DNA of 64,000 bases, from positions 62,001 to 126,000 of the forward strand of contig JACJOC010000095.1 in NCBI GenBank assembly GCA_014695345.1, written 5' to 3'. Positions 3,521 to 22,885 of this stretch are shown piece by piece. The notes beneath the pieces are model-generated. The model did no database searches and had not been told where the DNA came from. It saw only the letters and a program-made list of their open reading frames with translations. Position 1 is the stretch's first letter. Every line of letters begins with the position of its first letter. Source of the DNA: Cyanobacteria bacterium FACHB-471. Its GTDB lineage: Bacteria > Cyanobacteriota > Cyanobacteriia > Elainellales > Elainellaceae. Made by a program: the position numbers and the translations under genes.

Positions 3521-4092
3521 CAGGCAAGTTCCAGTAGTTTGATGTAAAAACAAAGCGCGATCGCTTCTGCATAAACTGATTGGTTTGCCTCAGCAAGGAT
3601 CCGTTGCGAAGAGCATGAGTTCCAATGTAGAGATAAGCAGGAATAGGATCAAATACTCTTTCTTTTTGAATTGATAAAAGTAATTTATGAACGTTTAAAG
3701 CTCTTGCCTGGAGCAGGTTTGACAATAGCTCAAACAGCGTGAAGTTAATTTTCCATAGCAGTGTTCAATTCTCCGATTTTTACATAGGGAAATAGGTTTA
3801 TCTTTCTTTTTTAGTGAAAAAGTGAAAAGCATAGTTCGCTATTTCTATTGAGAAATAGTGGCGATCGTCTTCTTTTTTGCACTACAAATTCAGATCAAAG
3901 GTAGCTTGGAAACATTTTTCAAACATTAAAATAATTCAGAATTTTGCTGTTGGTATTAAGGCATCCATTTTTTGAGAAAGCTTTGAAGCTACTAGGATTG
4001 CGTTGTAGGAAAGGTTATGGCATTATTTAAAGTACTAAATTTCGATTGATTTACCGGATTTAATGCTTAGAAAGTAAGGCACGTACAGATTG
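3521..4092. promoter_or_regulatory. Divergent intergenic region between APC operon and lysR gene
   Basis: This AT-rich 572-bp gap separates two divergent genes and should hold both promoters. A perfect inverted repeat (arms CTATTTCT / AGAAATAG, 3839-3846 and 3851-3858, 4-base spacer) lies near its middle and could be an operator for the neighbouring LysR protein. No convincing gene was found in it. Confidence 0.4.
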
Positions 4093-5112
4093 ATGACGTT
4101 TGAGCAATTGCGAATTTTTCTGGCTGTCGCAGAACATTTACACTTTACTCGTGCTGCGGAAGAACTCTACATTACTCAGCCTGCCGTCAGTGCCGCTATC
4201 AGTACTTTGGAAAAAGAGTATGGAATACGCCTGTTTCACCGCGTTGGGCGACACATCGAAATTACCGAAGCCGGAAAACTGCTAGAAGCAGAAGCGCAAA
4301 AGATTCTCGACCAGGTAGTTTTAACTGAACGTGGATTGCGAGAACTCAACAGCTTGCAGCGAGGGGAGTTGCGGCTGGGATCAAGTCTCACCGTAGGGAA
4401 CTACTGGTTACCAAAACGAATTACTCAATTCAAGCAAGAATATCCAGGGATTGTGGTCAATTGCACCCTGGCCAACGCCGAGGAAATTTGTGAAGGAACC
4501 GCATCAGGACTGTTTGATTTGGGGCTAGTGAATGGAGAGGTCAAACCCACGTTGCGGAATTTGCTGGAGCAGGAGGAAGTCGGGATCGATCGCCTCCAAA
4601 TTGTGGTCGGAAAAACTCATCCCTGGTACAGCCGCAGCAAAATTGAGGTAGAGGAATTACTCACCACGCAGTGGGTGATGCGAGAGCCGGGTTCTGGTGT
4701 TCAGCAAGTGTTTGAGCAAACCCTGGAGCGATTGGGTATTAAGCCGTTCCAACTCAATGTAGTATTAGTTTTAACCAGCAGTGAAATGGTGAGATCTGTT
4801 GTTGAGGGGGGAATTGGTGCCGCCGCAATTTCAGCCCTAATGGTGCAGAAAGAATTGCAGTTAGGAACGCTACGGGCGATCGCCGTAACTCAACAGAAGG
4901 GAAGCCTGACCACTTTGGACATCGTTCAGCCCGTGTGGAAGCTCAAACATCGGGAACGCTTTCAAAGCCGAGCGGCAGTTGCTTTCGAGCAAATGTTAAT
5001 GAACCAAACTGCTCAAGAGGACGCAGCAGGGGATGACTCAGCGGTAGAAGGCTCGGCAGTAGGTGATCCAACACTAGATGGTCCAGCCGTCGGCAATCCG
5101 GCACTTTGTTGA
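4093..5112 (+). CDS. LysR-family transcriptional regulator
   Basis: This 339-residue regulator has the LysR winged helix-turn-helix at residues 1-60 (MTFEQLRIFLAVAEHLHFTR, then TQPAVSAAI) and an effector-binding domain of two lobes from about residue 90 to 300. A TTG at 4090 is in frame but the ATG at 4093 matches the usual LysR N-terminus. The last 35 or so residues are an acidic low-complexity tail (repeats like SAVGDPTLDGPAVGNP) and overlap the end of the convergent SPFH gene by 100 bp. It resembles regulators of carbon or sulfur assimilation. Its position beside sulfur-type genes makes control of that island plausible but unproven. Confidence 0.9.
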   Translation: MTFEQLRIFLAVAEHLHFTRAAEELYITQPAVSAAISTLEKEYGIRLFHRVGRHIEITEAGKLLEAEAQKILDQVVLTERGLRELNSLQRGELRLGSSLTVGNYWLPKRITQFKQEYPGIVVNCTLANAEEICEGTASGLFDLGLVNGEVKPTLRNLLEQEEVGIDRLQIVVGKTHPWYSRSKIEVEELLTTQWVMREPGSGVQQVFEQTLERLGIKPFQLNVVLVLTSSEMVRSVVEGGIGAAAISALMVQKELQLGTLRAIAVTQQKGSLTTLDIVQPVWKLKHRERFQSRAAVAFEQMLMNQTAQEDAAGDDSAVEGSAVGDPTLDGPAVGNPALC

Positions 5113-5948: not shown

Positions 5949-5964
5949 CTTTACCTCTGCCAAT

Positions 5965-6957
5965 CTATAACACTGCTTGACGCAGTATCGGGAACACTTT
6001 GGACACTTTGTTTAACACGTAATCTCCATAGGTTCCACGAAATTCATGAACGCTAGCTTGGTCCCAACGTTCGTGTTTATCGTCATTTTGATGGAGTGAC
6101 AAATGTTGAATCGGTTTAACTTCGACGCTAAAGTTTGGATCAAAAAAGAAAGGAAAGGAGAGGCGATCGCTACCTGATTGATTCAACACTCGATGCGGTG
6201 TAGAGCGATATAGACCACCCGTCATGCGATCGAGCATATCGCCAATATTACAAATAAAGGTGTTGGGGAGAGGGGGAGCATCGATCCACTGAGCGTTGGA
6301 TTTGATTTGCAATCCACCACAGCTATCCTGTTTGAGAATTGTCAGAATGCCGTAATCGGTGTGTTCTCCAACGCCCCAAAGGGATTGCTTGTCAATAGTT
6401 GAGGGGTTGAACGGATAGTTAAAAATGCGAAATAGAATCAGCGGGTCATAAGTGTAGCGATCGCTAAAATAAGTTTCTTCTAACCCCAGACTGAGGGCAA
6501 TTCCTGTCATCAAGATATGTCCCAGTTGGGTCATAGCATTCATATAGCCCAGCACCATCTGACGCAGCAGCGGAATCGTATCCGGGAATAAATTTGCGCC
6601 ATGCATGGGAATGCCTGACCTCACCAATGGATGAGTCTCATCTAGCTCAGCCCCAAAATAAATTCCTTCTTTCTGGTCGGGTTTGCCAGAGGTTAGTTCA
6701 TCTCCAACCGGGAAATAGCCTCGCCACGCTCGACCACCCAACTCCATACGGATTTGCATCTTGGTGTCGAAATCTTGAGCAAAAAATTGGTGACTGAGTT
6801 CTTCTAAGTCGTGTTGCAACTGCTCTTCTACTCCGTGCTCCGTAATGTAGAAGAAGCCCCAGTCTTGGCAGGCTTGCCGGATTTGCTCAGCAACTAAAAT
6901 GCGATCACCAATTCCAGTGATGAGGGGTTGGATATTAACGACTGGAATCGGAGACAC
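5965..6957 (-). CDS. 2-oxoglutarate/Fe(II) oxygenase, isopenicillin N synthase-like
   Basis: This 330-residue enzyme has the N-terminal DIOX_N region (residues 4-110, QDWGFFYITEHGV) and the double-stranded beta-helix core. The iron ligands are visible as His199 and Asp201 (GEHTDYG) and His255 (STPHRV). Arg265 and Ser267 (DRLSFPFF) would bind 2-oxoglutarate. Such enzymes hydroxylate or desaturate small molecules; the substrate cannot be told from sequence. It is divergent from the AhpD-like gene across a 303-bp region with a TACGG/CCGTA inverted motif shared with other promoters of the sulfur island, so I suspect an organosulfur or similar substrate. Confidence 0.88.
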   Translation of the reverse strand: MSPIPVVNIQPLITGIGDRILVAEQIRQACQDWGFFYITEHGVEEQLQHDLEELSHQFFAQDFDTKMQIRMELGGRAWRGYFPVGDELTSGKPDQKEGIYFGAELDETHPLVRSGIPMHGANLFPDTIPLLRQMVLGYMNAMTQLGHILMTGIALSLGLEETYFSDRYTYDPLILFRIFNYPFNPSTIDKQSLWGVGEHTDYGILTILKQDSCGGLQIKSNAQWIDAPPLPNTFICNIGDMLDRMTGGLYRSTPHRVLNQSGSDRLSFPFFFDPNFSVEVKPIQHLSLHQNDDKHERWDQASVHEFRGTYGDYVLNKVSKVFPILRQAVL

Positions 6958-7260
6958 GGACTACCTACCTCTTTAAGTTCTATTAGCCACATTGATGGCA
7001 TTAGGGCAAAACGCGGTACATCAATCAGACTGCCGTAGATTAATTTTACAGCAGCCAGCCTGCTTGCGCTTTCTGAATAGGTATGCGAATATTTCAAAGT
7101 AAATACGGTATCTCGATTGACTTGCCGTACTTTATTAATCGTATTTTGGACATAAGTTTTTCCAGCTCTGGCACTGTTAATGGCTGTTGATAGCCACGAT
7201 TGGGTCAGCGTTGAACGCGGGTAATGAGAAAAATTGTTCTAACAACCTCAAGGAATTCCT
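6958..7260. promoter_or_regulatory. Divergent promoter region with AArTACGG-N16-CCGTAYTT motif
   Basis: This region separates the leftward oxygenase gene from the rightward AhpD-like gene. An imperfect inverted repeat has arms AAATACGG (7101-7108) and CCGTACTT (7125-7132), separated by 16 bases. The sequence TACGGTATCTC here resembles elements before the DszA-like operon (near 9197) and before ssuA (near 18455). A common regulator is inferred. AAGGAAT just before 7261 is the ribosome binding site of the rightward gene. Confidence 0.45.
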
Positions 7261-7875
7261 ATGTCAAATTCCAGCGATGTCAATGTTTTGGAGCTTTCTA
7301 CAGAGCTGAATGATGCATCTGCATCCTGGTTGGCATTGCCCGATGAAGCAAAGCTGCCGGATGAAATCAAAACTCTGTTTCAGCAACAGCGCGATGCCTA
7401 TGGGTTTGTTCATCCCTATTTCTATGGGTATGCGCTTAATCCTGAGCATTTCTTGCGGTGGTGGCACTACTACGATGCAATTCAACACCGTGCTGGAGGG
7501 TTATCCCATCGAGAGCGGGAGTTAATTGCAGTGGTAGTTTCTGCGACCAATCGGTGTGAATCTTGCGTGTTGACTCACCAGGCTCAGTTGCTATCAGTGA
7601 CGGGCGATCGCGCACTCACCAATGCTGTTGCCAGTGACTATCGCACAGCCCACTTAACCGATCGCGAACATGCCATTCTAGACTTTGCTGTAAAACTCAC
7701 TCGGTTGGACAGTGACTTATCACCCAATGACCTGGAACTGTTACGCGATGAAGGATTATCTGATGAGGCAATCCTAGAAGTGGGTGAAGTTGCTGGACAA
7801 TTCAGCCTTTCCAATCGTTTATCTAAAGCATTTGGTTGGAAGGTAAAACCGGGTCAGCTCAAAATTTTAAATTAG
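7261..7875 (+). CDS. AhpD-like/peroxidase-related carboxymuconolactone decarboxylase-family protein
   Basis: This 204-residue protein belongs to the AhpD-like superfamily. The redox-active motif is present: Cys99 and Cys102 with His106 (CESCVLTHQ), preceded by a Glu in the RERELIAVVV helix. Members reduce peroxides or relay electrons through the CxxC pair; this uncharacterised peroxidase-related subgroup is often found with sulfur- or flavin-dependent monooxygenases. It is a single gene between the divergent oxygenase and an aldo/keto reductase. Its role here may be to remove peroxides made by the neighbouring oxygenases, which is an inference. Confidence 0.85.
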   Translation: MSNSSDVNVLELSTELNDASASWLALPDEAKLPDEIKTLFQQQRDAYGFVHPYFYGYALNPEHFLRWWHYYDAIQHRAGGLSHRERELIAVVVSATNRCESCVLTHQAQLLSVTGDRALTNAVASDYRTAHLTDREHAILDFAVKLTRLDSDLSPNDLELLRDEGLSDEAILEVGEVAGQFSLSNRLSKAFGWKVKPGQLKILN

Positions 7876-8122
7876 TTTCCGTTTCCTATTTCTCCTAAGT
7901 TACAGGCGCAGCAGTGCGTCTGTTTTCTATTCTTCACCTTTTCTGTACCGCCTAGTTATAGAAACTCCTGTCCAAGCAAACTCTATTAAATTAGCTCCTG
8001 CTCCTGTGTAACTCCTGCAACTTTCACAACAGCAATCAAAGTACGATTGCTGGAGTTTGAGCGGTAGGGTATTTAAGTAGAGGAAAGTACACTTACAGTT
8101 GTAGAGAGGATTGGGAGAAGCT

Positions 8123-9154
8123 ATGGAATACAGGCAGCTAGGGGATCTCAAAGTATCTGAGATTTGTCTGGGGACGATGACCTACGGACAGCAGAACACT
8201 GTTGAACAGGCTCATCAACAGTTGGATTATGCGATCGCCCAGGGTGTCAACTTTATTGACACAGCGGAGATGTATCCCATACCACCCCGAGCTGAAACCT
8301 ATGGCGCAACTGAAACTTACATCGGTGAATGGTTAAAGAAACAGAGACGCGATCGCCTGATTATTGCCACTAAAATTGCGGGTCCAGGTCGAGGCATGAA
8401 ATGGATCCGCAACGGGGCAAAGGCGATCGATCGGGAGAACCTCAAACAAGCGGTTGATGAAAGTTTGAAACGGTTGCAGACTGACTACATTGACTTGTAT
8501 CAGATTCACTGGCCCGATCGCTATGTTCCACTGTTTGGGCAATCTGTGTACGATCCTACTCAGGAAAGGGAAACGGTAGCCATTGCCGAGCAGCTATCTG
8601 TATTTGCAGATTTGATTCAAGCAGGCAAGATTCGCCATGTCGGTTTGAGTAATGAAACGCCCTGGGGAGTTTCTCAGTTCAGTCATGCTGCAAAGCAATT
8701 AGGATTGCCCAAAGTGGTGTCAATTCAAAACGCTTACAATTTGCTCAATCGTGTGTTTGATTGGGCGTTAGCAGAAGCCTGTCACTATGAAAATGTAGGA
8801 CTGTTGGCTTACAGTCCGCTGGCGTTTGGGATGCTGTCTGGGAAGTACCTTTCTAAACAACCTGAGAAAGCCAGAATTACACAATTCAAAGGGTTTGGAC
8901 AACGTTATCTCAAAACGAATGTAAAGGAAGCTGTGGTTGCCTACGTTGACATTGCTCAGCGCTATAATCTTACTCCGGCTCAACTGGCGATCGCCTTCGT
9001 GCAAAGCCGTTGGTTTGTCACCAGTACCGTCATTGGCGCAACCACCTTAGAACAGTTGCAGGAAAATTTAGACAGCCTGGAAGTGATTCTGAGTGATGAG
9101 ATATTAGTAGAAATTGAAGCAGTACATCACCGCTATCCCAATCCAGCACCGTAA
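8123..9154 (+). CDS. Aldo/keto reductase, Tas-like
   Basis: This is a 343-residue NADPH-dependent TIM-barrel reductase. The catalytic tetrad region is visible: FIDTAEMYP (Asp and Tyr), TKIAGP (Lys) and QIHWPDRY (His). It has the full length and the long AETYGATETYIGEWL loop of the Tas/YajO-like branch. I chose the ATG at 8123 preceded by GGGAG; a TTG at 8111 would read through that ribosome binding site. The physiological carbonyl substrate is unknown. It could reduce aldehydes released by the nearby monooxygenases. Confidence 0.9.
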   Translation: MEYRQLGDLKVSEICLGTMTYGQQNTVEQAHQQLDYAIAQGVNFIDTAEMYPIPPRAETYGATETYIGEWLKKQRRDRLIIATKIAGPGRGMKWIRNGAKAIDRENLKQAVDESLKRLQTDYIDLYQIHWPDRYVPLFGQSVYDPTQERETVAIAEQLSVFADLIQAGKIRHVGLSNETPWGVSQFSHAAKQLGLPKVVSIQNAYNLLNRVFDWALAEACHYENVGLLAYSPLAFGMLSGKYLSKQPEKARITQFKGFGQRYLKTNVKEAVVAYVDIAQRYNLTPAQLAIAFVQSRWFVTSTVIGATTLEQLQENLDSLEVILSDEILVEIEAVHHRYPNPAP

Positions 9155-9196
9155 GGCTTGATTTTTGACGGTGCTTGTGAAATCATGATGAATTAA

Positions 9197-9222
9197 TACG
9201 GTAAATCTATCAATTTACTGTA
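9197..9222. promoter_or_regulatory. Imperfect palindrome before the DszA-like operon
   Basis: TACGGTAAAT (9197-9206) and ATTTACTGTA (9213-9222) form an inverted repeat matching at 9 of 10 positions around a six-base spacer. It lies just upstream of the flavoprotein gene that starts the operon. The half-site TTACYGTA recurs upstream of ssuA. A regulator operator is inferred from position and symmetry. Confidence 0.5.
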
Positions 9223-9274
9223 GATTGTCGTGGAGCTACAGATTCAGTCCATTGCACGGAATAACATTGGAAGC

Positions 9275-10477
9275 ATGTCATTAGCAGTCGAGCAAGCTGT
9301 AAATTCTCAAAATTCTCAAGCAGTGGACTACCGGGCGATCGCCACATCACTGGCTCAAGAGTTTGCTGCAACTGCCGTTGAGCGGGATGCAAAGGGGGGC
9401 ACGCCCCAAACCGAGCGCGACAAGCTGCGGCAGAGCGGTTTGCTCAGGCTGGTGATTCCCCAGGAATATGGCGGAATTGGCGATCGCTGGACAACGGCTC
9501 TTCAGATTACGCGAGACTTTGCTAAAGTAGATAGCTCCATTGCTCATCTGTTTTCCTATCACCATTTAGGGGTGGCTGCTCCCCACATTTTTGGAACGGC
9601 AGAACAAAAAGAGCGATATTACAAACTTACGGCAGAAAATAACTGGTTCTGGTGTAACGGGTTTAATCCGCTTGACCGTCGTGTCTCACTTACCCCAGAG
9701 GCAGATTACTTCCGGTTAAATGGCATCAAGAGTTTTTGTTCGGGTTCCGTTGATTCCAACCTGATTCCAGTGAGTGCTGTGTTGCCTGGAGTGGAGGGGC
9801 TTGCGATCGCCATTGTCCCTACTGCTCGTGAGGGTGTGACAGTAAATGGTGATTGGGACAACATGGGTCAGCGGCAAACTGACAGTGGCAGCATCACTTT
9901 TGATAATGTGCTTGTTCAACCAGAAGAGATCTTGCGCCCTGATTTAAACAATGGTGTGTTCAAAACCATTCGCTCTTGCTTGACTCAAATCACTTTTGCC
10001 AACATCTATCTCGGCATTGCACTGGGGGCTTTGGAAGCAGCTCAAGCATACACTCGGACGGAGAGCAGAGCGTGGTTGACTTCTGGAGTTGAGCAAGCAA
10101 CACAAGATCCTTACATCTTGCAGCACTACGGTGAGATGTGGGTGAATTTGCAAGCGGCGATCGCTCTGACTGATCAGGCAAATACACAGGTTCAAGCAAC
10201 CTGGGAGCGAGGGGATCAACTCACAGCAGAGGAAAGAGGGAAATGTGCGGTGGCGATCGCTTCTGCCAAGATTCTCGCGACCAAAGTTGGACTGGATGTG
10301 ACAAGCCGCATTTTTGAAGTAATGGGTACTCGCTCAACGGCTTCTAGATATAGGTTCGATCGCTACTGGCGCAACCTTCGCACGTTTACCTTACACGACC
10401 CGGTGGACTACAAAATTCGGGCGATCGGTGACTGGGCACTTAACCAACAGCTTCCTAAGCCTGATTATTACTTATGA
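9275..10477 (+). CDS. Acyl-CoA dehydrogenase-fold flavoprotein, SfnB/DszC-like
   Basis: This protein of about 400 residues has the acyl-CoA dehydrogenase fold: the N-terminal helical domain (LRLVIPQEYGG), the central beta domain and the C-terminal helical bundle (FEVMGTRSTASRYRFDRYWR). The last motif is typical of the SfnB/DszC branch, which handles sulfones or thiophene sulfur with reduced flavin, not acyl-CoA. The ATG at 9275 fits family length; a GTG at 9230 would add 15 residues and neither has a strong ribosome binding site. Its stop overlaps the DszA-like start (ATGA). A role in organosulfur oxidation is well supported by context. Confidence 0.85.
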   Translation: MSLAVEQAVNSQNSQAVDYRAIATSLAQEFAATAVERDAKGGTPQTERDKLRQSGLLRLVIPQEYGGIGDRWTTALQITRDFAKVDSSIAHLFSYHHLGVAAPHIFGTAEQKERYYKLTAENNWFWCNGFNPLDRRVSLTPEADYFRLNGIKSFCSGSVDSNLIPVSAVLPGVEGLAIAIVPTAREGVTVNGDWDNMGQRQTDSGSITFDNVLVQPEEILRPDLNNGVFKTIRSCLTQITFANIYLGIALGALEAAQAYTRTESRAWLTSGVEQATQDPYILQHYGEMWVNLQAAIALTDQANTQVQATWERGDQLTAEERGKCAVAIASAKILATKVGLDVTSRIFEVMGTRSTASRYRFDRYWRNLRTFTLHDPVDYKIRAIGDWALNQQLPKPDYYL

Positions 10478-11808
10478 GTACACTGCATCTGGCTGGGTTC
10501 ATGCATTCCTCTCACGTGGTGTTAAGCCACGCGATTTGGCGGCATCCCCAGACAGAGTTAGGCTTTTTGCAGCCTGAGTTTTATCAAACCATTGCTCAAA
10601 TACTGGAACGTGGCAAGTTTGATCTGGTGTTTTTTGCGGATGCACTAGCACTTCCTGACCAATATGGTAACAGTCCTGAAGTGGGCTTGCAGTATGGCGC
10701 TCAGGGAATGGTGCGGCTCGATCCCATGCTGGTTGCAACGGTGATGGCAACTGTCACTCAACACATTGGGGTAGGGATCACTCGCTCAACTACTTATTAT
10801 CAGCCCTACGATCTGGCGCGGACGTTTGCCACGTTAGATCACTTATCTAACGGGCGAGCCGCCTGGAATGTCGTTACCTCCGGACGAACGGCTGAAGCAA
10901 AAAACTTTGGCGTAGAGCAACATCTAGACCACGATCGCCGCTATGACCGGGCAGATGAGTTTATTCAAGTCACCGCAAAACTGTGGGATAGCTGGCAACC
11001 CGATGCACTGATTCTTGACCAGGAAAGCGGCATTTTTGCCGATCCCAGTAAGGTTAATTACGTCAACCACGAAGGAGAATGGTTTAACGTTCGTGGCCCA
11101 CTAACAGTTCCCCACTCGCCCCAGGGAAAACCTGTGATTATCCAGGCGGGATCATCCGATCGCGGCAAAGATTTTGCCGCAAAGTGGGCAGAAGTGATTT
11201 TTGAGATCAAGCATACGCCTGCTCAGATGAAGGTGTTTTATGACGATATTAAGTCTCGTCTGAGTCAGTTTGGACGACATCCTGATGACTGCAAAATTCT
11301 TCCCACGTTTACACCCTTTGTGGGAGAAACAGAGGCGATCGCCAAAGAAAAACAGTCTTTCCACAATGACTTAATTCATCCCCTTGTTGGACTCTTTACC
11401 CTATCCAGCCATGCCGACTATGATTTCTCTCAACATGACTTACACCAACCTCTGGTGGACATTCCCTTTAAGGGGTTGCGGGGACTGTTGGAAGTCGCTC
11501 AAGAGTTAACGCGATCGCAAAATCTTACCTTAGCCGATGTTGGTCGGCTGTATGGTCAAGGAGTTTTAGCCCCTCAAGTCGCAGGAACTCCCCAACAAAT
11601 TGCCGATTGGATGGAGAACCTATTTCGAGCAAAAGCCTGCGATGGATTTGTGATTTCCCCGGCTCACTTACCCGGAACGTTCACTGAATTTGTGGATTGG
11701 GTTGTACCAGAGCTACAGCAGCGGGGACTGTTTCGCTCTGAATACGCCACCGCCACATTGCGAGAACATTTACAACTGCCCACTGTAAGGCAGCCTGTCG
11801 AGGTATGA
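10474..11808 (+). CDS. FMN-dependent monooxygenase, NtaA/SnaA/DszA family
   Basis: This 444-residue luciferase-like TIM-barrel protein shows hallmark stretches of the NtaA/SnaA/DszA family: FDLVFFADAL, GVGITRSTTYYQPYDLARTF, LDHLSNGRAAWNVVTS and YDRADEFIQV. These enzymes use FMNH2 from a separate reductase and O2, for example to cleave the C-S bond of sulfones in DszA. No flavin reductase gene is seen nearby, so one must be encoded elsewhere. The start overlaps the previous stop and its stop overlaps the next start (ATGA both times), showing tight translational coupling with the MetQ-like lipoprotein. Confidence 0.92.
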   Translation: MSTLHLAGFMHSSHVVLSHAIWRHPQTELGFLQPEFYQTIAQILERGKFDLVFFADALALPDQYGNSPEVGLQYGAQGMVRLDPMLVATVMATVTQHIGVGITRSTTYYQPYDLARTFATLDHLSNGRAAWNVVTSGRTAEAKNFGVEQHLDHDRRYDRADEFIQVTAKLWDSWQPDALILDQESGIFADPSKVNYVNHEGEWFNVRGPLTVPHSPQGKPVIIQAGSSDRGKDFAAKWAEVIFEIKHTPAQMKVFYDDIKSRLSQFGRHPDDCKILPTFTPFVGETEAIAKEKQSFHNDLIHPLVGLFTLSSHADYDFSQHDLHQPLVDIPFKGLRGLLEVAQELTRSQNLTLADVGRLYGQGVLAPQVAGTPQQIADWMENLFRAKACDGFVISPAHLPGTFTEFVDWVVPELQQRGLFRSEYATATLREHLQLPTVRQPVEV

Positions 11809-12695
11809 CCATCATGAAGATCCAGAATGTCCGTCTTTCACTTAGCCGTCGATTTCTTTTAGTTGCAGCAGGCACCTTCGCAGCTACAACTATCATTTCA
11901 AGCTGCACTTCTTCCCAAGAAGTGAGTGAGTCACCTGCGGGTGAATCGCCTGCAGCAGAACAAGCAGAAGGTGGAACGCTAACCGTTGGCGTAAGTCCAG
12001 TTCCCCATGCTCAGATCTTGCAGTATGTCAAAGACAATCTGGCAGAGGAAGCTGGGTTAGAAATTGAGATCGTAGAATTTTCAGACTACGTGCAGCCTAA
12101 TCTGGCACTCAATGACGAGCAAATTGATGCCAACTATTTCCAACATGTTCCATACATGGAAGATTTTGGCGCAGAACGGGGAATTGAAATGGTGGCTGTC
12201 GCACCCGTCCACATTGAGCCACTAGGCATTTACTCGAATGAAATTGAATCTCTAGAACAGGTTCCCGATGGAGCAACGATCGCCATCCCCAATGATGCAA
12301 CCAATTTGGGGCGATCGCTCAAACTCCTAGAAGATCAGGGACTACTCACCTTACGGGAAGGTGCAGGTGTAGAAGCGACGATCCAGGATATTGAAGAGAA
12401 CCCCAAGAACCTTGAATTTGCTGAACTAGAAGCCGCCCAACTACCCCGTGCATTGGAGGACGTAGAACTAGCAATTATCAACGGTAACTATGCCTTGCAA
12501 GCCAACCTATCTCCCAGTGAAGATGCTCTCGCCCTAGAAACTGCCGAGGACAATCCTTACGCTAACGTACTCACCGTCTTACCTGACCGGGAGCAAGATC
12601 CAAACGTGCAGAAGCTAGCTGAATTACTCACTTCAGAAGAAGTGAAACAGTTCATCGAGGAGGAATATCAAGGTTCCGTAATTCCTGCGCTGTGA
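11805..12695 (+). CDS. MetQ/NlpA-family substrate-binding lipoprotein (copy 1)
   Basis: This 296-residue periplasmic binding protein has a lipoprotein signal peptide with basic residues (LSRRFLLVAAG) and a lipobox ending at Cys34 (IISSC). The mature part matches MetQ: QPNLALNDEQIDANYFQH, then IAIPNDATNLGRSLKLL and the closing ADLLTSEEV-like helix. MetQ proteins feed methionine to MetNI. Here the gene is fused into an operon with a DszA-like monooxygenase, so a different organosulfur ligand is possible. A paralogue follows 34 bp downstream. An ATG at 11814 is an alternative start. Confidence 0.9.
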   Translation: MTIMKIQNVRLSLSRRFLLVAAGTFAATTIISSCTSSQEVSESPAGESPAAEQAEGGTLTVGVSPVPHAQILQYVKDNLAEEAGLEIEIVEFSDYVQPNLALNDEQIDANYFQHVPYMEDFGAERGIEMVAVAPVHIEPLGIYSNEIESLEQVPDGATIAIPNDATNLGRSLKLLEDQGLLTLREGAGVEATIQDIEENPKNLEFAELEAAQLPRALEDVELAIINGNYALQANLSPSEDALALETAEDNPYANVLTVLPDREQDPNVQKLAELLTSEEVKQFIEEEYQGSVIPAL

Positions 12696-12729
12696 TTGGC
12701 ATTTTCAGTCATCTACCCTGAACGATTCA

Positions 12730-13626
12730 ATGAGGTTGAACAGGATGAACTCAAAGCAAGGACAATTTAACTTTGTACCCCTCAAACGTCGATTTGTTCT
12801 ATTGGCGGCAGCTTTTACATTAACCACCTTAGTTTCAAGCTGCTCTACTCCTGAAACTACATCCTCTGGGCAAACCACTCAAAGCGAACAGCCTGCTCAA
12901 GATGAAGTGTTGACGGTTGGAGTTACGCCTGTTCCGGCAGGGGAAATTCTGGCATTTGTGCGAGATGAGTTAGCTCCTGAAGCCGGGCTGGAGATTGAAA
13001 TCGTTGAATTTAATGAGTTTAATCAGCCCAACCTGGCTCTCAAGGAAGGCGAGTTAGACGCAAATTACTTTCAGCACATTCCGTTTATGGAAGATTTTGG
13101 TAAGCAGCATGAGATTGATCTGGTGCCGCTCAATGCAATTCACCTGAACCCGGTAGGTGCCTTCTCAAAACGTTTTCAGTCGCTAGATGAACTTCCTGAT
13201 AATGCTACAATCACCGTTCCTAATGATGTCACGAATTTGAATCGTGCCTTGCAGCTTTTAGCAGAGAACGAGCTGATTACGCTGCGAGAGGGAGTTGGAG
13301 AGCTGGCAACCACTAAGGATATTGTTGAGAATCCTAAAAACCTGCAAATTGTTGAAATTGAAGCGCCCTCTCTGGTGCGATCGCTAGATGATGCAGATGT
13401 CTCTATCATTACCGGCAACTTCGTGGTGCAGGCAGGGATGAATACGCGGGAGGATGCGATCGCCCTCGAAAACCCAGAAGGCTCACGCTACGCCGTCCGA
13501 CTAGCCACCCTGCGCGGACAAGAAAACGATCCCCGTATCCAAACCCTCAACGAACTCCTGGTCGATCCCCAAGTGCGCGAATTCATCGAAGAGAAATATG
13601 ATGGAGCTGTCATCCCCGTCTTTTAA
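12730..13626 (+). CDS. MetQ/NlpA-family substrate-binding lipoprotein (copy 2)
   Basis: This is a second MetQ-like lipoprotein (298 residues) with a lipobox at Cys38 (LVSSC) and the same landmarks: NQPNLALKEGELDANYFQH, TITVPNDVTNLNRALQLL and a closing helix LNELLVDPQVREFIEEKYDG. The two copies differ at many places, including the region lining the ligand pocket, so they may bind different substrates and share one MetNI transporter. An ATG at 12745 (MNSKQG) is a possible start as well. It is followed 34 bp later by metN with a GTG start. Confidence 0.9.
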   Translation: MRLNRMNSKQGQFNFVPLKRRFVLLAAAFTLTTLVSSCSTPETTSSGQTTQSEQPAQDEVLTVGVTPVPAGEILAFVRDELAPEAGLEIEIVEFNEFNQPNLALKEGELDANYFQHIPFMEDFGKQHEIDLVPLNAIHLNPVGAFSKRFQSLDELPDNATITVPNDVTNLNRALQLLAENELITLREGVGELATTKDIVENPKNLQIVEIEAPSLVRSLDDADVSIITGNFVVQAGMNTREDAIALENPEGSRYAVRLATLRGQENDPRIQTLNELLVDPQVREFIEEKYDGAVIPVF

Positions 13627-13660
13627 TAGTCTCAATCCCTAACCCCCAATCCCCAAAGCC

Positions 13661-14644
13661 GTGATCAGCATCCGCGACCTATACAAAATCTATACTTACC
13701 AGCAGGGAAAAGGAAAAATCGCTGCCCTGGATGGTATTAGCCTGGAGGTAAAAGCAGGAGAAGTGTTCGGCGTTTTAGGGCAGAGCGGCGCAGGCAAAAG
13801 CACGCTAATCCGCTGTGTCAATTGCCTAGAAAGACCCACCTCTGGCTCAGTGTGGGTAGGGGATGAGGAAATCACTGCTCTGTCAGGTACGAGGCTGCGA
13901 AAAGCCCGTCAGCGGATTGGCATGATCTTTCAGCACTTTAATTTACTCAGTTCCCGTACTGCGGCTGAAAACATTGCTTTTCCTCTGGAATTAATGGGCT
14001 ACAGCCGCCTAAAGCGACGGGCACGAGTAGAAGAATTGCTGGCACTGGTGGGGTTAGAAGGTCGAGGGGATGCTTATCCTGCTCAACTGTCGGGCGGACA
14101 AAAACAACGGGTTGGTATTGCCAGAGCACTGGCAGGTAATCCCAACGTGTTGCTTTGTGATGAAGCGACTTCTGCTTTAGATCCGCAAACTACACGCTCA
14201 ATTCTGGAGCTATTGCGAGACTTGAACCGCCGCATGGGATTAACTATTCTGCTGATTACTCATGAGATGGGCGTGGTGAAGCAGATATGCGATCGCGTTG
14301 CCATCCTTGAAGCGGGAAAAGTGATAGAGCAAGGAACTGTGAGTGAGTTGGCGGCTCAGCCTGATTCCTTTATTGCTAGAGAACTGTTTCCTCAACGGAA
14401 TGGTTTTAAGCCTCGCCCTGGTTCCGTCTTGGTCACGATTGCCTTTCGAGGTGAGACTGCCAACCAGCCACTCATTTCTGATTTGGCAAAACGATTTGAT
14501 GTGGATGTCAACATTATTAGCGGCACTGTGGATACCGTGGGTGGTCAGCGAGTTGGACAACTTCACGTTGAGTTGTCAGGTAAGGATGTCAGCTCAGCGT
14601 TGGACTATCTTCAGGTCCAAGATTTAAGGCATGAGGTGCATTGA
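13661..14644 (+). CDS. metN: Methionine-type ABC transporter ATP-binding protein MetN
   Basis: The 327-residue ATPase has Walker A (GQSGAGKST), signature (LSGGQKQRVGIARAL), Walker B (VLLCDEATSALD) and the switch His (LLITHEMG). After about residue 245 comes the NIL regulatory domain (PGSVLVTIAFRGE onward) that lets methionine inhibit MetNI in known systems. It starts with GTG at 13661, with no clear ribosome binding site. The metI start codon overlaps its stop by one base (TGATG). Whether it carries methionine or another sulfur compound is not visible in sequence. Confidence 0.93.
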   Translation: MISIRDLYKIYTYQQGKGKIAALDGISLEVKAGEVFGVLGQSGAGKSTLIRCVNCLERPTSGSVWVGDEEITALSGTRLRKARQRIGMIFQHFNLLSSRTAAENIAFPLELMGYSRLKRRARVEELLALVGLEGRGDAYPAQLSGGQKQRVGIARALAGNPNVLLCDEATSALDPQTTRSILELLRDLNRRMGLTILLITHEMGVVKQICDRVAILEAGKVIEQGTVSELAAQPDSFIARELFPQRNGFKPRPGSVLVTIAFRGETANQPLISDLAKRFDVDVNIISGTVDTVGGQRVGQLHVELSGKDVSSALDYLQVQDLRHEVH

Positions 14645-15300
14645 TGCTTGATCCCGTGTTGATGGAGAGCCTTTGGCAAGCGACGGTTGAAACTTTCTAC
14701 ATGGTAGGAATTTCAGCCCTATTAGCCGTCCTGTTTGGCTTACCCCTGGGACTGCTACTTGTGATTACTGCTCCTAATCATATCCTGCCAAACTCTGCAA
14801 TTCAGAAGGTTCTGGGGTCGATCGTAAACGTGGGGCGATCGATCCCGTTCATCATTTTACTGGTGGCAATTATTCCGTTTACGCGATTGGTTGTTGGCAC
14901 TACTATCGGCAGCACGGCGGCACTAGTGCCACTCACGATTGCAGCAATTCCTTTTTTTGCTAGAGTCGCTGAAACTGCACTGCTAGAAGTTGATCGCGGC
15001 TTAATTGAAGCAGCACAGTCGATGGGCTGTAATCACTGGCAAATCGTCCTCAAAGTACTAGTTCCTGAAGCTTTGCCTAGCTTAATCTTAGGTATCACCA
15101 TTATGGTGATTAGCCTATTGAGCTATTCGGCAATGGCGGGTGTTGTAGGGGGAGGGGGGTTGGGCGATTTGGCGATTCGCTATGGGTATCAACGGTTTGA
15201 TACAACAGTAATGGTTGTGACGGTGGTATTGCTGATTATTTTGGTGCAGATTGCTCAATATGTAGGCGATCGCCTCGCTATTCGCTTGAGAAAGCGATAG
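14644..15300 (+). CDS. metI: Methionine-type ABC transporter permease MetI
   Basis: This 218-residue inner-membrane permease has five hydrophobic segments and the EAA loop that contacts MetN (EAAQSMGCNHWQIVLKVLVPEALP). Length and pattern match MetI closely (GRSIPFIILLVAIIPFTR near residue 62). I chose the ATG at 14644, which overlaps the metN stop; a TTG at 14641 is less likely. It is the last gene of the rightward operon that began with the SfnB-like flavoprotein. Confidence 0.93.
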   Translation: MLDPVLMESLWQATVETFYMVGISALLAVLFGLPLGLLLVITAPNHILPNSAIQKVLGSIVNVGRSIPFIILLVAIIPFTRLVVGTTIGSTAALVPLTIAAIPFFARVAETALLEVDRGLIEAAQSMGCNHWQIVLKVLVPEALPSLILGITIMVISLLSYSAMAGVVGGGGLGDLAIRYGYQRFDTTVMVVTVVLLIILVQIAQYVGDRLAIRLRKR

Positions 15301-15336
15301 TTTTTGGGGAGTTTCTTGGAGAACAGCCAAACAGCC

Positions 15337-15380
15337 TTGGGGGTTTCCCAAAACCCCCAGCAGGGGACGTGCTCGTCCCC
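15337..15380. repeat. Two adjacent G/C-rich hairpins after metI
   Basis: Hairpin one has stem TGGGGGTTT / AAACCCCCA (15338-15346 and 15351-15359) with a 4-base loop. Hairpin two has a perfect 7-bp stem GGGGACG / CGTCCCC (15363-15369 and 15374-15380) with loop TGCT. There is no T tract, so a simple intrinsic terminator is not obvious. The arrangement looks like a small dispersed intergenic repeat between the convergent metI and ssuB-like genes. Confidence 0.55.
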
Positions 15381-15584
15381 CTCCGCAAGGATCTGTGAAT
15401 TTGTGGAAGAACGCGCTTCGCATCGGTGAGTGGCAAGGGACTAACTTGTAGGTGGTGAAGCAAAGCGGAACCCAACATAGTCCTTGTTGTACTGACAACA
15501 GTTATTCAGCTCTCAACATAAATCTGGTTTGCTGCTAAAACCTCAGATAAAACTCCCATAATTCTCCTCTTTGGTGTGCGTTAT

Positions 15585-16328
15585 CTATACCCCTGTGAGC
15601 GATCGCACCAATGACAAATCCAACTCATTTAACAGTCGCTCTTTCCACTGTTGTAGATGAGTATCTGTGCGTTTGCGAGGACGGGGGAGATCCAAAACAA
15701 ATTCTCGATGGATTCGTCCTGGGTTGCTTCTCATCACAATAATGCGATCGCTTAACACCAGAGCTTCCTCGATATCATGGGTAACAAGTAACATCGTCGG
15801 ACGGTCGTATTCCCAAATGTGCAGCAGATGATCTTGCAATTTAGTGCGGGTAAAGGCATCGAGCGCACTAAACGGCTCATCTAATAGAAGGATTGAAGGT
15901 TGTGTAATCAGGGCACGAGCGATCGCCACTCGCTGAGCCATGCCACCTGAAAGTTGGCGCGGCAGCGCATTCGCAAAGTCAGCTAATCCTACTTTTACCA
16001 GCGTTGTGGCGATCGCTGCTTCACTATCTGCTGCTTGCTCCAGTCCAAACCGGACATTGTCCTTTACAGTTAACCAGGGCATTAACCGGGGTTCCTGAAA
16101 AATCATGCCTACTTCAGGATGAGGATTGGCGATCGGTTCATTGTCAATCCAGACATCCCCTTCACTGGGAAAATCTAGTCCTGATATGATTCGCAGTAGC
16201 GTACTCTTGCCGCAGCCACTTGTTCCCACCAGGCTGACAATTTCCCCAGGATGAACTTCTAAGTTGACTGCGTCTAGCGCCAAAAAACTGTTGTCAAATT
16301 GCTTGTAGACATTTTCGACTCGCAACAT
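15585..16328 (-). CDS. ssuB: Sulfonate/taurine-type ABC transporter ATP-binding protein (SsuB/TauB-like)
   Basis: This 247-residue ATPase has Walker A (GTSGCGKST), a Q-loop (MIFQEPRLMPWLTV), the signature (LSGGMAQRVAIARAL), Walker B (ILLLDEPFSALD) and the switch His (LLVTHDIEEAL). The EPRLMPWLTV segment and the D-rich loop are typical of the nitrate/sulfonate/taurine group. It is the third gene of a leftward operon with the permease and binding protein. Substrate class is inferred from SsuA similarity and the sulfur neighbourhood; nitrate or thiamine precursors are less likely. Confidence 0.88.
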   Translation of the reverse strand: MLRVENVYKQFDNSFLALDAVNLEVHPGEIVSLVGTSGCGKSTLLRIISGLDFPSEGDVWIDNEPIANPHPEVGMIFQEPRLMPWLTVKDNVRFGLEQAADSEAAIATTLVKVGLADFANALPRQLSGGMAQRVAIARALITQPSILLLDEPFSALDAFTRTKLQDHLLHIWEYDRPTMLLVTHDIEEALVLSDRIIVMRSNPGRIHREFVLDLPRPRKRTDTHLQQWKERLLNELDLSLVRSLTGV

Positions 16329-16370
16329 TCCTGGTTCTTCCCCGGATTTATATCACAACCTTTTTTCTGC

Positions 16371-17237
16371 TTAATTCTTTTGGGCTTGCAAACTGTAGGA
16401 GTCTTGCCAACTCACCAACCGTCTGCCGATCGCCACCAATCCTGTATCTGTCAGCTTACCCATGATGGCAAACAGGAGAATGCTAGCAATGATGATGTCT
16501 GGGCGACCCGTCGTTTGACCATCAATTAGGAGAAAGCCCAGCCCTCGACTGGCTCCCATAATTTCAGCCGCCACCACAAACATCCAGCCCAAACCTAAGC
16601 CATTTCGCAAGCCCACGATGTAGGAAGGTAATGTGGCAGGCAAGAAGACTCGCCAGATTAACTGAGCTTGACTAAAGCGATAGACCCGCCCCACCTCTAC
16701 CAGTTTGCGGTCGACCTGCTGAATGCCCGCCATCAGCGTCAGATAAACGGGGAAAAACACACCAACGGCGATCAGAGCAATTTTGGATGTTTCAGCAATT
16801 CCTAGCCACAGAATAAACAAGGGCACCCAGGCTAGTGATGGAATGTTTCTCAATGCCTGAAACAATGGATCGAGCAGTTGATTTGCGACACGCGAGTATC
16901 CAGTCAATGCCCCCAGAATTGTGGCGAGAACTCCACCAATGAGAAATCCTAGAAAAACACGATAGAGCGTGATTCCAATGTGAATCAACAGTTCACCGCT
17001 GAGGGTGAGTGTCCACAAAGTGAGGGCGATCGCAGAGGGTGCAGGCAACAGGTTGGGAGGAAACACACCGATTCGAGACAACAGTTCCCAAACAACCAGT
17101 AACCCAACAGGCAGAATGAAACCCAGCGTCCAGTGTCCTCTTAAACCTAGTCGTCGCCGACGGGACTGAGATCTAGTTCGCTGAACAGGCGCAAGCGTTG
17201 CAGAATTTAGGCGTTTGGGAGGCGACGGATAATTCAT
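16371..17237 (-). CDS. ssuC: Sulfonate-type ABC transporter permease (SsuC-like)
   Basis: This 288-residue permease has about six membrane segments and the EAA-type loop (VEVGRVYRFSQAQLIWRVFL). The sequence GLGWMFVVAAEIMGASRGLG near the end is typical of SsuC/TauC permeases. It has a long basic N-terminal extension (SRRRRLGLRGHW) before the first segment. Its start codon overlaps the ssuA stop (ATGA), and a 42-bp gap separates it from ssuB. Confidence 0.9.
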   Translation of the reverse strand: MNYPSPPKRLNSATLAPVQRTRSQSRRRRLGLRGHWTLGFILPVGLLVVWELLSRIGVFPPNLLPAPSAIALTLWTLTLSGELLIHIGITLYRVFLGFLIGGVLATILGALTGYSRVANQLLDPLFQALRNIPSLAWVPLFILWLGIAETSKIALIAVGVFFPVYLTLMAGIQQVDRKLVEVGRVYRFSQAQLIWRVFLPATLPSYIVGLRNGLGLGWMFVVAAEIMGASRGLGFLLIDGQTTGRPDIIIASILLFAIMGKLTDTGLVAIGRRLVSWQDSYSLQAQKN

Positions 17238-18337
17238 GAGTGTGAGTGCTGCGGGTGATGGACAACTTTCTGGTGACTGATAACTCTCTGGTGACTAGCA
17301 ACCTTTTCAACAAACTGTGGATCGACCAGTTCATCAGCAACCTGATTGACATCAATTGAGCCAGGAATGACACCACTGCTCTTAAGCACATCTCCTGCCG
17401 CAACAATCGTGTCTTTATGCACCTGACCAATCACCGCATTGGATAAATCTGTTCGTTCTAATTGCTTGGTTGCAACTGCATCGCTAAGTTTCGCTTCCTT
17501 CTGCAAAATCGCTTTTAACTCATTTGGATTTTCCAAAGACCACTGCCTTGCCCGTTCATACACTGCCAGCACCCGTTCTACATAATCGGGGTATTGCTGG
17601 GCAAATGCTTCTCTCACATTCAAAAAGCCATAGGTATTTAAGTCAGGATCGCGGAAAAATAAGCGAGAACCCTTTTCTAACTCAGTTTGCGCCATGTGAG
17701 GGTCAAGCCCCGCCCAAGCATCAACATCTCCTCGCTCCAGTGCAGTTTTGCCGTCTGCATGCTGAAGTTGGACAACCTCAATATCCTGTTCTGATAAACC
17801 GACTTGATCCAGTGCCCGCAGTAAGAAAATGTGAGGATCAGTTCCTCGGGTCACCGCAACTTTCCGTCCCTGAAGGTCTTCAACCGTGTTGATATCAGAA
17901 TCAGCCGTTGTTACCAAGGCAGTCCACTCCGGCCTTGAGTAAATGTAAACCGACTTAATCGGATTGCCATTCGCTTTGCCCAGCAAGGCGGCAGCACCAG
18001 CCGTAGAGCCAAAATCAATACTGCGGCTGTTGAGCAATTCTAGGGCTTTGTTGCTGCCCAAACTCTGAACCCACTCAACGCTGACGTTATCTTGAGCTAA
18101 CTCTTCTTCTAGCCAGCCCTTCTCCTTGAGTACCAGGCTCACCGGATTGTAGTAGGCAAAATCGAGCTTGATTGTACCCGGATTGTCTCCAGCGGGAGCA
18201 CTGCAACTGCTCGTCACCAAAATTAGGCTGAACACTAGCGAGAACAGGAACGCAAAGCCAGGAACCTGCTTTGGATTCAGCGATCTAAAGCCTCTCACCC
18301 AACGGGGTATCAGTGTGCGTCTGCTGTTAGCGATCAT
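17234..18337 (-). CDS. ssuA: Aliphatic sulfonate-type substrate-binding lipoprotein (SsuA-like)
   Basis: This 367-residue binding protein has a lipobox at about Cys45 (VTSSC) and SsuA/TauA landmarks (FAYYNPVSLVLKEKGWLEE, SIDFGSTAGAAALLGKANG, GRKVAVTRGTDPHIFLLRAL). The start is placed at the ATG at 18337 because GAGGAAG lies six bases upstream; a TTG at 18352 adds five residues. The C-terminus is a His-rich tail (SHQKVVHHPQHSHS), unusual in this family. It is the first gene of the leftward operon and its promoter region holds TTACYGTA elements. Confidence 0.9.
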   Translation of the reverse strand: MIANSRRTLIPRWVRGFRSLNPKQVPGFAFLFSLVFSLILVTSSCSAPAGDNPGTIKLDFAYYNPVSLVLKEKGWLEEELAQDNVSVEWVQSLGSNKALELLNSRSIDFGSTAGAAALLGKANGNPIKSVYIYSRPEWTALVTTADSDINTVEDLQGRKVAVTRGTDPHIFLLRALDQVGLSEQDIEVVQLQHADGKTALERGDVDAWAGLDPHMAQTELEKGSRLFFRDPDLNTYGFLNVREAFAQQYPDYVERVLAVYERARQWSLENPNELKAILQKEAKLSDAVATKQLERTDLSNAVIGQVHKDTIVAAGDVLKSSGVIPGSIDVNQVADELVDPQFVEKVASHQRVISHQKVVHHPQHSHS

Positions 18338-18670
18338 GGGATACTTCCTCAAAAATAAAACCGACTCAGGGAACAGTCCTTACAAAAAACGCAAAGCTTG
18401 AGGTGAAAAGGCTTAGCCGCTTCACAGGGAATTAGAATAAGTAGAATTTCAAAATTACTGTATCTCTACCGAGTTACCGTAAATTCTTGGAGAATCATTG
18501 CATACTTTTGTAGATGCAGGCAAGATGGAGGCAAAATTTTGCTTAAAGGTTGAGCAATCTGTTGCGTTGATCGGGAGCAGCGTGACGACCTTGACGGAAA
18601 TTGCCGAATGTATGGCATTGTTGGAACTGACAGGCTTATCCCTATCTCCAACTTCTGGTTCTAGCGTTTC
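18338..18670. promoter_or_regulatory. Divergent promoter region of ssu operon and sugar kinase; two TTACYGTA elements
   Basis: TTACTGTA (18455-18462) and TTACCGTA (18474-18481) are direct copies 19 bp apart, about two helical turns, upstream of ssuA. TTACTGTA also occurs in the palindrome at 9197-9222. A small hairpin with GTGAA (18403-18407) and TTCAC (18421-18425) lies in the ssuA leader. No additional gene is seen. Confidence 0.5.
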
Positions 18671-19984
18671 ATGGCACTAGATTACACACCGTCTGATAAC
18701 ACCCCGGCCGGAGTGTCCGGCTCTTATGTGGGCATCGATTTTGGTACTTCAGGCGCACGGGCGATCGCCATCAACACCCACCAACAAATCCAAGCTCAAA
18801 CCAGTTTCCGATTTGAAGATGATCAGGATTTGGCAACGATCTGGCAAACGGCACTGTTCACCCTACTTGAACAGCTTCCTGTAGAAATTCGTCAGCAGCT
18901 AAAGGCGATCGCCATCAATGGCACCTCTTCCACGGTGCTAGTTTGTGATGCTCAGGGAATTCCGCTCGATCAGCCAATTCTCTACAACGATGCGCGTGGA
19001 ATGGCGGTGATGGATCAGGTGAAAACGATCGCCCCGCCCAATCACACCGTAATTAGCGCCACCTCCAGCCTTGCTAAACTGCTATGGTGGGCTACTTGCA
19101 CAGAGGTGCTGTGTGTTTCTTCTGAAGCCTATTTTCTACATCAAGCAGATTGGCTTGCATTTCTGTTGCACGGTCAACTGGGTATCAGTGACTATCACAA
19201 TGCCCTGAAATTAGGATATAACGTAGGTGAGTTACGTTATCCCGACTGGATGCAAGAGTTACCTGTCTCTTTTAAGCTGCCGCAGGTTGTTGCTCCGGGG
19301 ACACCGATTGGAGTGGTAAAAAGGGAAATTGTCACGCAATTCCATTTGCCTGCCGACTGTTTGGTGTGTGCGGGAACGACCGATAGCATTGCTGCCTTTC
19401 TTGCTAGTGGAGTTCAGTTTCCTGGTGAGGCCGTCACATCTCTCGGCTCTACTCTGGTGCTAAAGCTGCTCAGCGAAACTCGTGTGGACGATGCTCGATA
19501 TGGCATTTACAGCCATCGTCTGGGAGATTTGTGGTTAGTGGGTGGCGCATCCAACACAGGCGGAGCCGTACTAAAACAGTTTTTCACTGATGCAGAACTG
19601 AAGCATTTAAGTGAGCAAATTCAACCCGCGCAAGCCAGTTCGCTTGATTACTACCCGCTGCTCACACCTGGCGAACGCTTTCCGATTAACGATCCCCAAC
19701 TTCAACCTCGATTAGACCCTCGACCCGATCGCCCCGTAGAATTTCTGCGCGGTCTGCTAGAAGGTATTGCTCGAATTGAAGCGAGGGGCTATCGGCTGCT
19801 GCAAGAATTAGGCGCAACCCCGCTATCTCAAGTCTATACAGCGGGCGGTGGTGCAAAAAATCTGATTTGGGCTGAGATGCGATCGCGCCACTTACAGGTA
19901 CCTGTCCTTCCCTCTGCCCAAACTGAAGCAGCCTACGGAACTGCACTATTAGCAAGCAGGCAAACGCCATACCTGGACAGGTGA
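18671..19984 (+). CDS. FGGY-family sugar kinase (D-ribulose/xylulose kinase-like)
   Basis: This 437-residue kinase has the FGGY fold: N-terminal phosphate loop (GIDFGTSGARAIAI, residues 22-35), the ILYNDARGM substrate region and C-terminal adenosine-binding motif (TAGGGAKNLIWAEM). It resembles the cyanobacterial and plant XK-1/SePSK group, shown in Synechococcus elongatus to act on D-ribulose. It reads away from the ssu operon and stands alone. Ribulose is the best guess for the substrate, and xylulose is the alternative. Confidence 0.85.
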   Translation: MALDYTPSDNTPAGVSGSYVGIDFGTSGARAIAINTHQQIQAQTSFRFEDDQDLATIWQTALFTLLEQLPVEIRQQLKAIAINGTSSTVLVCDAQGIPLDQPILYNDARGMAVMDQVKTIAPPNHTVISATSSLAKLLWWATCTEVLCVSSEAYFLHQADWLAFLLHGQLGISDYHNALKLGYNVGELRYPDWMQELPVSFKLPQVVAPGTPIGVVKREIVTQFHLPADCLVCAGTTDSIAAFLASGVQFPGEAVTSLGSTLVLKLLSETRVDDARYGIYSHRLGDLWLVGGASNTGGAVLKQFFTDAELKHLSEQIQPAQASSLDYYPLLTPGERFPINDPQLQPRLDPRPDRPVEFLRGLLEGIARIEARGYRLLQELGATPLSQVYTAGGGAKNLIWAEMRSRHLQVPVLPSAQTEAAYGTALLASRQTPYLDR

Positions 19985-19994
19985 AATATTAAAA

Positions 19995-20023
19995 ATCTCC
20001 AAATTCCTTGAGAATTTGGAGAT
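19995..20023 (-). terminator. Rho-independent terminator of fru operon
   Basis: A perfect 12-bp stem (ATCTCCAAATTC, 19995-20006, and its complement at 20012-20023) encloses a 5-base loop. Read leftward it is followed by TTTTTAATATTT, which fits an intrinsic terminator for fruA. Read rightward it also closes the sugar kinase gene but has no T tract. Confidence 0.85.
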
Positions 20024-20054
20024 CCAGGAACTCAGCGATAAGTGATATGTATCT

Positions 20055-21899: not shown

Positions 21900-21928
21900 G
21901 ATTATTAGAAGTTGTTAAATGATGAAAC

Positions 21929-22867: not shown

Positions 22868-22885
22868 AGGAGATGCACAAGGTAA

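Follow-up and report, generated by a model that had tools for sequence, protein, structure and literature searches.

Are the promoters of a sulfur island in Cyanobacteria bacterium FACHB-471 controlled by one regulator and, if so, which protein reads the element they share? The question is raised by 64,000 nucleotides of assembly GCA_014695345.1 (contig JACJOC010000095.1, positions 62,001 to 126,000, forward strand), hereafter called the window. An original prediction, made from the letters alone, described TTACYGTA-type half-sites upstream of three transcription units of the island, took their spacing to differ and proposed a single regulator, perhaps the LysR-family protein encoded at 4093. 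The letters and coordinates are all exact: AAATACGG-N16-CCGTACTT occupies 7101-7132, TACGGTAAAT-N6-ATTTACTGTA occupies 9197-9222, and TTACTGTA and TTACCGTA are found at 18455-18462 and 18474-18481. The spacing, however, does not differ, since the first letters of the heptamers are 19 bp apart in all three places (7104/7123, 9197/9216 and 18456/18475). Given this constant start-to-start distance, the three sites, designated A, B and C, are one and the same 26-bp even palindrome, TACNGTA-N12-TACNGTA (one heptamer is TGCCGTA). Its axis lies between bases 13 and 14, and the consensus is roughly TACSGTAWNTYKR to the left and YMRANWTACSGTA to the right of the axis. A fourth copy, site D, was absent from the original prediction; it is the weakest of the four and starts 60 bp before the ATG of the LysR gene. 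The sites are listed below with matrix scores for which the strings of the own genome were left out.

Site A, 9197..9222, TACGGTAAATCTATCAATTTACTGTA, 5' of the desulfurisation operon, score 35.8.
Site B, 18456..18481, TACTGTATCTCTACCGAGTTACCGTA, between ssuA (- strand) and the FGGY kinase gene (+ strand), score 32.9.
Site C, 7104..7129, TACGGTATCTCGATTGACTTGCCGTA, between the divergent dioxygenase and CMD-family genes, score 31.1.
Site D, 4033..4058, TACTAAATTTCGATTGATTTACCGGA, 5' of the LysR gene, score 20.6.
Possible weak second copy beside site C, 7012..7037, CGCGGTACATCAATCAGACTGCCGTA, score 7.9 only and not claimed as a site.

Scoring was performed with a 26-column matrix. In the following, G and L numbers denote other genomes and fetched loci, respectively, except for G000, which is the own genome. 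The seed consisted of 61 different strings picked by eye among 75 listed of the 92 sites found in a set of 60 relatives; 13 of the 75 were left out (one each from G001, G009, G016 and G032, two from G025, three from G008 and four of the eight sites of G000). The four own-genome strings in the seed were removed for scoring sites of the window and of the own genome. With this matrix, the next-best position in the window after sites A to D scores 7.9, and the highest score reached at any position in 200 shuffled windows (approximate dinucleotide shuffling) was 17.6, with a mean maximum of 3.2. The loose pattern (TACNGTA-N12-TACNGTA with ≤ 3 mismatches) was not enriched in the window, with 13 matches compared to 10.6 expected.

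The original prediction had proposed a genome-wide search for the palindrome and its distance to sulfur genes. For the simple pattern, 8 sites were found in the own genome with ≤ 2 mismatches (3 for the reversed control), and with ≤ 3 mismatches 25 places compared to 27 for the control. As the counts with ≤ 3 mismatches do not exceed the chance level in window or genome, simple counting alone is weak evidence, and loose pattern counts were rejected as evidence of enrichment. The matrix, which was applied to the 25 pattern candidates and to fetched stretches, does separate them: 13 of the 25 candidates score ≥ 17 and the other 12 score ≤ 12.7. The latter include C63:133443, a one-mismatch match to the pattern, which scores just 12.7 and is not claimed as a site. 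Eleven of the 13 strong sites are either in the island (A to D) or near genes of sulfur type or for CRP-type regulators. Of the strong sites with such neighbours outside the island, two precede an operon that combines ssuA-like and SsuD genes with FMN reductase and transporter genes. Another is flanked by a CysA-like ATPase gene and a PAP2 gene, a further one by rhodanese and mgtC genes, and one is situated 5' of a CRP-type gene. Yet another lies 5' of a transporter operon that includes a TauD-like gene, and the last is found within a short open reading frame (ORF), 462 bp ahead of a tauE gene. A further site, C81:188169 (position 8170 of L041), scores 27.1 and lies 5' of a gene with weak TPR matches, which has no known sulfur link.

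The same element recurs in other cyanobacteria. In the 60 relatives, 92 sites with ≤ 2 mismatches were found compared to 53 for the reversed control, and their numbers are very uneven (G019, 15 and 1 in the control; G031, 13 and 0). Sites in other genomes precede ssuD, ssuA, tauD, sfnB-like, LLM, cysA, rhodanese, metQ-like, tauE and regulator genes, which are sulfur targets by family assignment. Another sample was selected by the presence of a CRP gene rather than by the motif and comprises the best 80 of 263 loci; these CRP-chosen loci overlap the other genome sets in part and include near-identical species. Among pairs of TACNGTA ≤ 40 bp apart in the 80 loci, 22 of 31 have a spacing of 12, and any other spacing occurs ≤ 2 times. 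Only 3 of the 99 sites scoring ≥ 16 in these loci are inside long ORFs. At a score > 20, 67 sequences contain 114 sites, whereas 100 column-permuted matrices gave a mean of 0.01 and a maximum of 1; some of the 114 are counted twice and most of the loci were motif-chosen, and this count, like a further one of 137, includes overlapping loci, e.g. L113/L159 and L144/L145. Thus, one element with fixed spacing, recurring before sulfur genes, supports the proposal that the promoters are under shared control by one regulator. On a Pseudanabaena plasmid (L241, positions 850, 4942 and 17458), the palindromes often have a TACATG-like centre in place of TCGATCGA, with the outer boxes kept.

As reader we favour a CysR-like protein of the CRP/FNR family that would act as a dimer, is about 200 residues long and has a conserved C-terminal W-H-Y-E-I tail; we consider this assignment probable from the distribution of the sites over genomes and promoters. 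In the own genome, the gene of the tailed protein is located on another contig, far from the window (G000:C63:386595-387188), and has a site in its own promoter. The protein shows the features of the family, an N-terminal cNMP-type barrel and a C-terminal Crp helix-turn-helix: in Pfam, HTH_Crp_2 (4e-17) and Crp (9.2e-13) are above the cut-off and cNMP_binding (4.9e-06) reaches 26.9 bits with a cut-off of 27.5. The AlphaFold model of a 90% identical homologue has a CRP fold with a pLDDT of 84.2, the last 16 residues being under 50. NtcA, the nitrogen regulator of the CRP/FNR family, is the nearest fold in Foldseek (2xhk, E 2.8e-14) and comes first among solved sequences in a family profile search. 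The recognition helix resembles that of NtcA as well. The NtcA site, GTA-N8-TAC, is shorter than the palindrome found here, in which GTA and TAC are 12 bp apart, and the W-H-Y-E-I tail marks the tailed clade off from NtcA.

CRP-type proteins were compared across 31 genomes: 20 of them have a tail of the W-H-Y-E-I type and 11 do not. A site scoring ≥ 14 within ≤ 450 bp upstream precedes 16 of the 20 tailed genes and none of the 11 tailless ones. In the CRP-chosen loci, such a site precedes the CRP gene in 45 of the 76 with a recognised tail (36 at ≥ 18) and in 0 of the 4 others; permuted matrices gave a mean of 0.025 of 80 and a maximum of 1. Co-occurrence was determined in 195 genomes from the whole class, where 'tailed' means a listed match reaching model position 188-190, including G091 (internal stop) and G013 (partial gene). 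The tailed-CRP counts in this set are those among the matches listed, to about E 8e-52, so that a few tailed proteins may be missing, and relatedness is ignored in the co-occurrence tests. Sites number 214 (control 18) in the 71 genomes with a tailed CRP and 37 (control 24) in the 124 in which none was listed. Eight genomes without a tailed CRP hold at least 2 sites, and 2 of the 8 keep remains of the gene. In G071 (C43:4496-4690, L286) this is a related stretch with stop codons, in G182 (C1:5287255-5287392, L276) a truncated match; the tail motif is present in the G182 relic and absent from the G071 relic, and both genomes still have sites. Taken together, spread and position of the site suggest a reader related to NtcA and not the neighbouring LysR protein.

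CysR has been named as a cyanobacterial sulfur regulator since the 1990s. By its presumed role and its gene neighbourhood, the tailed CRP protein is likened to CysR (Synpcc7942_1684), which regulates genes for sulfur acquisition in Synechococcus elongatus PCC 7942. The 80 CRP-chosen loci contain 28 CysA-like genes in the vicinity of the tailed CRP gene, and on a Pseudanabaena plasmid the two are adjacent. In passages of PMC12016511, cysR is described as a global transcriptional regulator for sulfate assimilation and no operator is stated; genes of the S. elongatus plasmid pANL are tied to CysR by the title of a reference cited in PMC8049743. No description of the 26-bp operator, or of any CysR operator, was found in the open-access literature. 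On pANL (L240), the best intergenic matches are at 31586, before an Rrf2 gene, and at 38745 and 38802, before DUF4242, acyl-CoA dehydrogenase and transporter genes. Compared with the sites described here, they are weak but well placed: when 1000 permuted matrices were applied to intergenic positions, 43 attained the best score and 9 the third best.

Several observations weigh against the tailed CRP protein as reader. Known CRP/FNR operators span 14-22 bp, and their half-sites are separated by roughly one turn of the helix, whereas the present operator has 26 bp with heptamers 19 bp apart from start to start, and its strongest letters (TACSGTA) are farther out than in operators of the family. 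We know of no binding mode in the CRP/FNR family with such outer boxes. This length, which is long for the family, speaks against the tailed protein as reader but does not touch the identification of its fold, and is the main reason for our reserve. Furthermore, 4 of the 20 tailed promoters have no site (G003, G007, G025 and G042), nor has L175, whose tail variant W-Y-Y-Q-I was counted as tailless; if it is taken as tailed, the counts for the CRP-chosen loci become 45 of 77 and 0 of 3. At 2 mismatches, 14 of the 71 genomes with a tailed CRP among the matches listed are without a site, and in 6 of the 8 exceptional genomes no relic was found at E 1e-12, including G147 and G203, which have good sites. 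Two of the 13 strong own-genome sites, C81:188169 and C109:15788 (the latter within a short ORF), are without a clear sulfur target. On pANL, the best score of 7.6 falls short of 10.0, the whole-plasmid 95% level obtained with permuted matrices. Finally, a -10 element at a fixed distance was not found for 71 sites at offsets 22-34 (TANNNT 26 times on the gene side and 29 times on the other side), which leaves a class II activation geometry unsupported; repression is possible as well. Just beside the site, at centre +14, TANNNT occurs 8 times on the gene side and 2 times on the other side.

Of the other candidate readers, the second Rrf2 protein of the same islands, which is CymR-like, comes closest, and is unlikely. 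Palindromes of about 25-27 bp are the targets of Rrf2 proteins, among which CymR controls the cysteine metabolism of Firmicutes. The long palindrome and, for CymR, the role in sulfur metabolism are shared with CymR/IscR-type systems. The best NCBIfam equivalog of the protein is CymR, below the cut-off. In the own genome the Rrf2 gene adjoins the CRP gene, and a site precedes 19 of the 35 Rrf2 genes of the CRP-chosen loci. Second Rrf2 genes were seen in the sulfur islands of L037 (6097-6525), L102, L115, L147 and L240 (31647). A second Rrf2 was scored in the 60 genomes by a hand-set criterion, the presence of a second match with an E value no higher than about 1e-20, which makes this test softer than the one for LysR. 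Where a second Rrf2 was scored (17 genomes), 59 sites occur (control 19), but the paralogue follows the operator less well than the tailed CRP does. Where a second Rrf2 is present without a tailed CRP, only 3 sites occur in 6 genomes (control 8), whereas a tailed CRP without a second Rrf2 is accompanied by 20 sites in 10 genomes (control 12), including 7 in G008 and 4 in G007. These two and G014, which has 3 sites, have one Rrf2 match each. The 60-genome comparison favours CRP over Rrf2, less sharply than over LysR.

It is quite unlikely that some other protein travelling with the islands is the reader and that the tailed CRP gene is just a frequent target. Such a reading would accommodate G147, G182 and G203, which keep sites without an intact tailed CRP, and the CRP protein is a candidate identified from sequence. 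Nevertheless, the sites follow the tailed CRP more closely than either of the other two regulators examined, LysR and the second Rrf2, and two of the exceptional genomes hold remains of its gene.

The LysR protein of the window, with site D as its autoregulatory site, is very unlikely to be the regulator. The position of site D would fit autoregulation, LysR and CRP genes are found in common islands (e.g. L241), and in the 195 genomes LysR orthologues co-occur with the sites (174 in 54 genomes, control 11). However, when these genomes are divided by presence of LysR and of the tailed CRP (among the matches listed), both together are accompanied by 166 sites in 44 genomes (control 9), the tailed CRP without LysR by 48 in 27 (control 9), LysR without the tailed CRP by 8 in 10 (control 2) and neither by 29 in 114 (control 22). 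Genomes with LysR but no tailed CRP still have more sites than those with neither (0.80 compared to 0.25 sites per genome; p = 0.006 in a rank test without correction for relatedness), and the protein may have a minor role. The larger number of sites where LysR is also present fits islands travelling together. Only 3 of 18 LysR promoters have a site, compared to 16 of 20 for the tailed CRP gene, and in L027 and L030 the sites lie past the 3' end of the LysR gene and not in its promoter. LysR-type Cbl and SsuR control ssu genes in proteobacteria, and LysR-type proteins recognise a T-N11-A core. Such a core is centred on a base, whereas the 26-bp palindrome is symmetric between bases and has no T-N11-A core centred on its axis; the operator thus differs in symmetry from those of Cbl and SsuR, and LysR 4093 does not track the sites alone. 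The suggestion that it controls the three promoters is unsupported, as sites can abound without it. Instead, the LysR gene looks like a further target of the tailed CRP protein through site D. That the palindromes are chance matches, as the loose counts in window and genome would allow, is contradicted by the scores of the full matrix, the constant spacing and the repeated occurrence of the site before sulfur genes of many genera and can practically be dismissed.

The genes around sites A to D were assigned as follows.

4093..5112, + strand, LysR-family regulator gene (Pfam HTH_1 and LysR_substrate), likely target of site D.
5965..6957, - strand, 2-oxoglutarate/Fe(II) dioxygenase family gene (Pfam DIOX_N and 2OG-FeII_Oxy), possible target of site C.
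7261..7875, + strand, carboxymuconolactone decarboxylase-family gene (Pfam CMD), possible target of site C.
9275..10477, + strand, DszC/SfnB-like flavin monooxygenase gene (NCBIfam DszC 404 bits and SfnB 303 bits, both below cut-offs).
10474..11808, + strand, NtaA/DmoA-family FMN-dependent monooxygenase gene (TIGR03860, 530 bits, above cut-off).
11805..15300, + strand, genes of two MetQ/NlpA-like lipoproteins, a MetN-like ATPase and a MetI-like permease (Pfam).
15585..18352, - strand, ssuB-, ssuC- and ssuA-like transporter genes (Pfam; SsuA family TIGR01728 above cut-off).

Site A is upstream of the DszC/SfnB-like and NtaA/DmoA-type monooxygenase genes and the MetQQNI-like transporter. The ATG of the DszC/SfnB-like gene is at 9275, and an in-frame GTG is present at 9230, 7 bp past the site. 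Site B is upstream of the ssuACB-like genes and faces the FGGY kinase gene on its other side. For LysR 4093, no NCBIfam family reached its cut-off among the 25 listed of 56.

Some neighbouring genes were noted in addition. The FGGY kinase gene facing site B is followed by a PTS set (IIB-IIC, PfkB kinase and IIA-HPr-EI fusion; 18671-25354 together). Two cadmium-resistance-type transporter genes (567-1984) adjoin the island, and a similarly annotated gene is present in the Pseudanabaena sulfur island on plasmid ABRG53c. A gene at 5013-5963, whose homologues are annotated as prohibitin family, is recurrent in these sulfur islands; in the CRP-chosen loci, 9 of 12 of these homologues have a site upstream.

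Sites A to D are probably operators of a cyanobacterial sulfur-acquisition regulon, in which operators precede genes that serve to transport and cleave sulfonates, organosulfur compounds and sulfate. We infer that a dimer of the tailed CRP protein would physically bind the 26-bp palindrome and control the sulfur-scavenging genes together with its own gene. The signal sensed would be sulfur limitation, and the genes would be switched on in sulfur shortage, by analogy with CysR of S. elongatus as described in PMC12016511 and PMC8049743. On a wider scale, much of the cyanobacteria may share a sulfur regulon run by the tailed CRP/FNR clade, with a 26-bp operator whose TACSGTA boxes lie beyond the normal CRP reading frame and whose centre has drifted in some lineages, a view for and against which we see about equal weight. 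The defined 26-bp site provides candidate target genes in many genera and a candidate regulator with a diagnostic tail, and would bring sulfonate, taurine-type and DszC-like desulfurisation genes under a common control.

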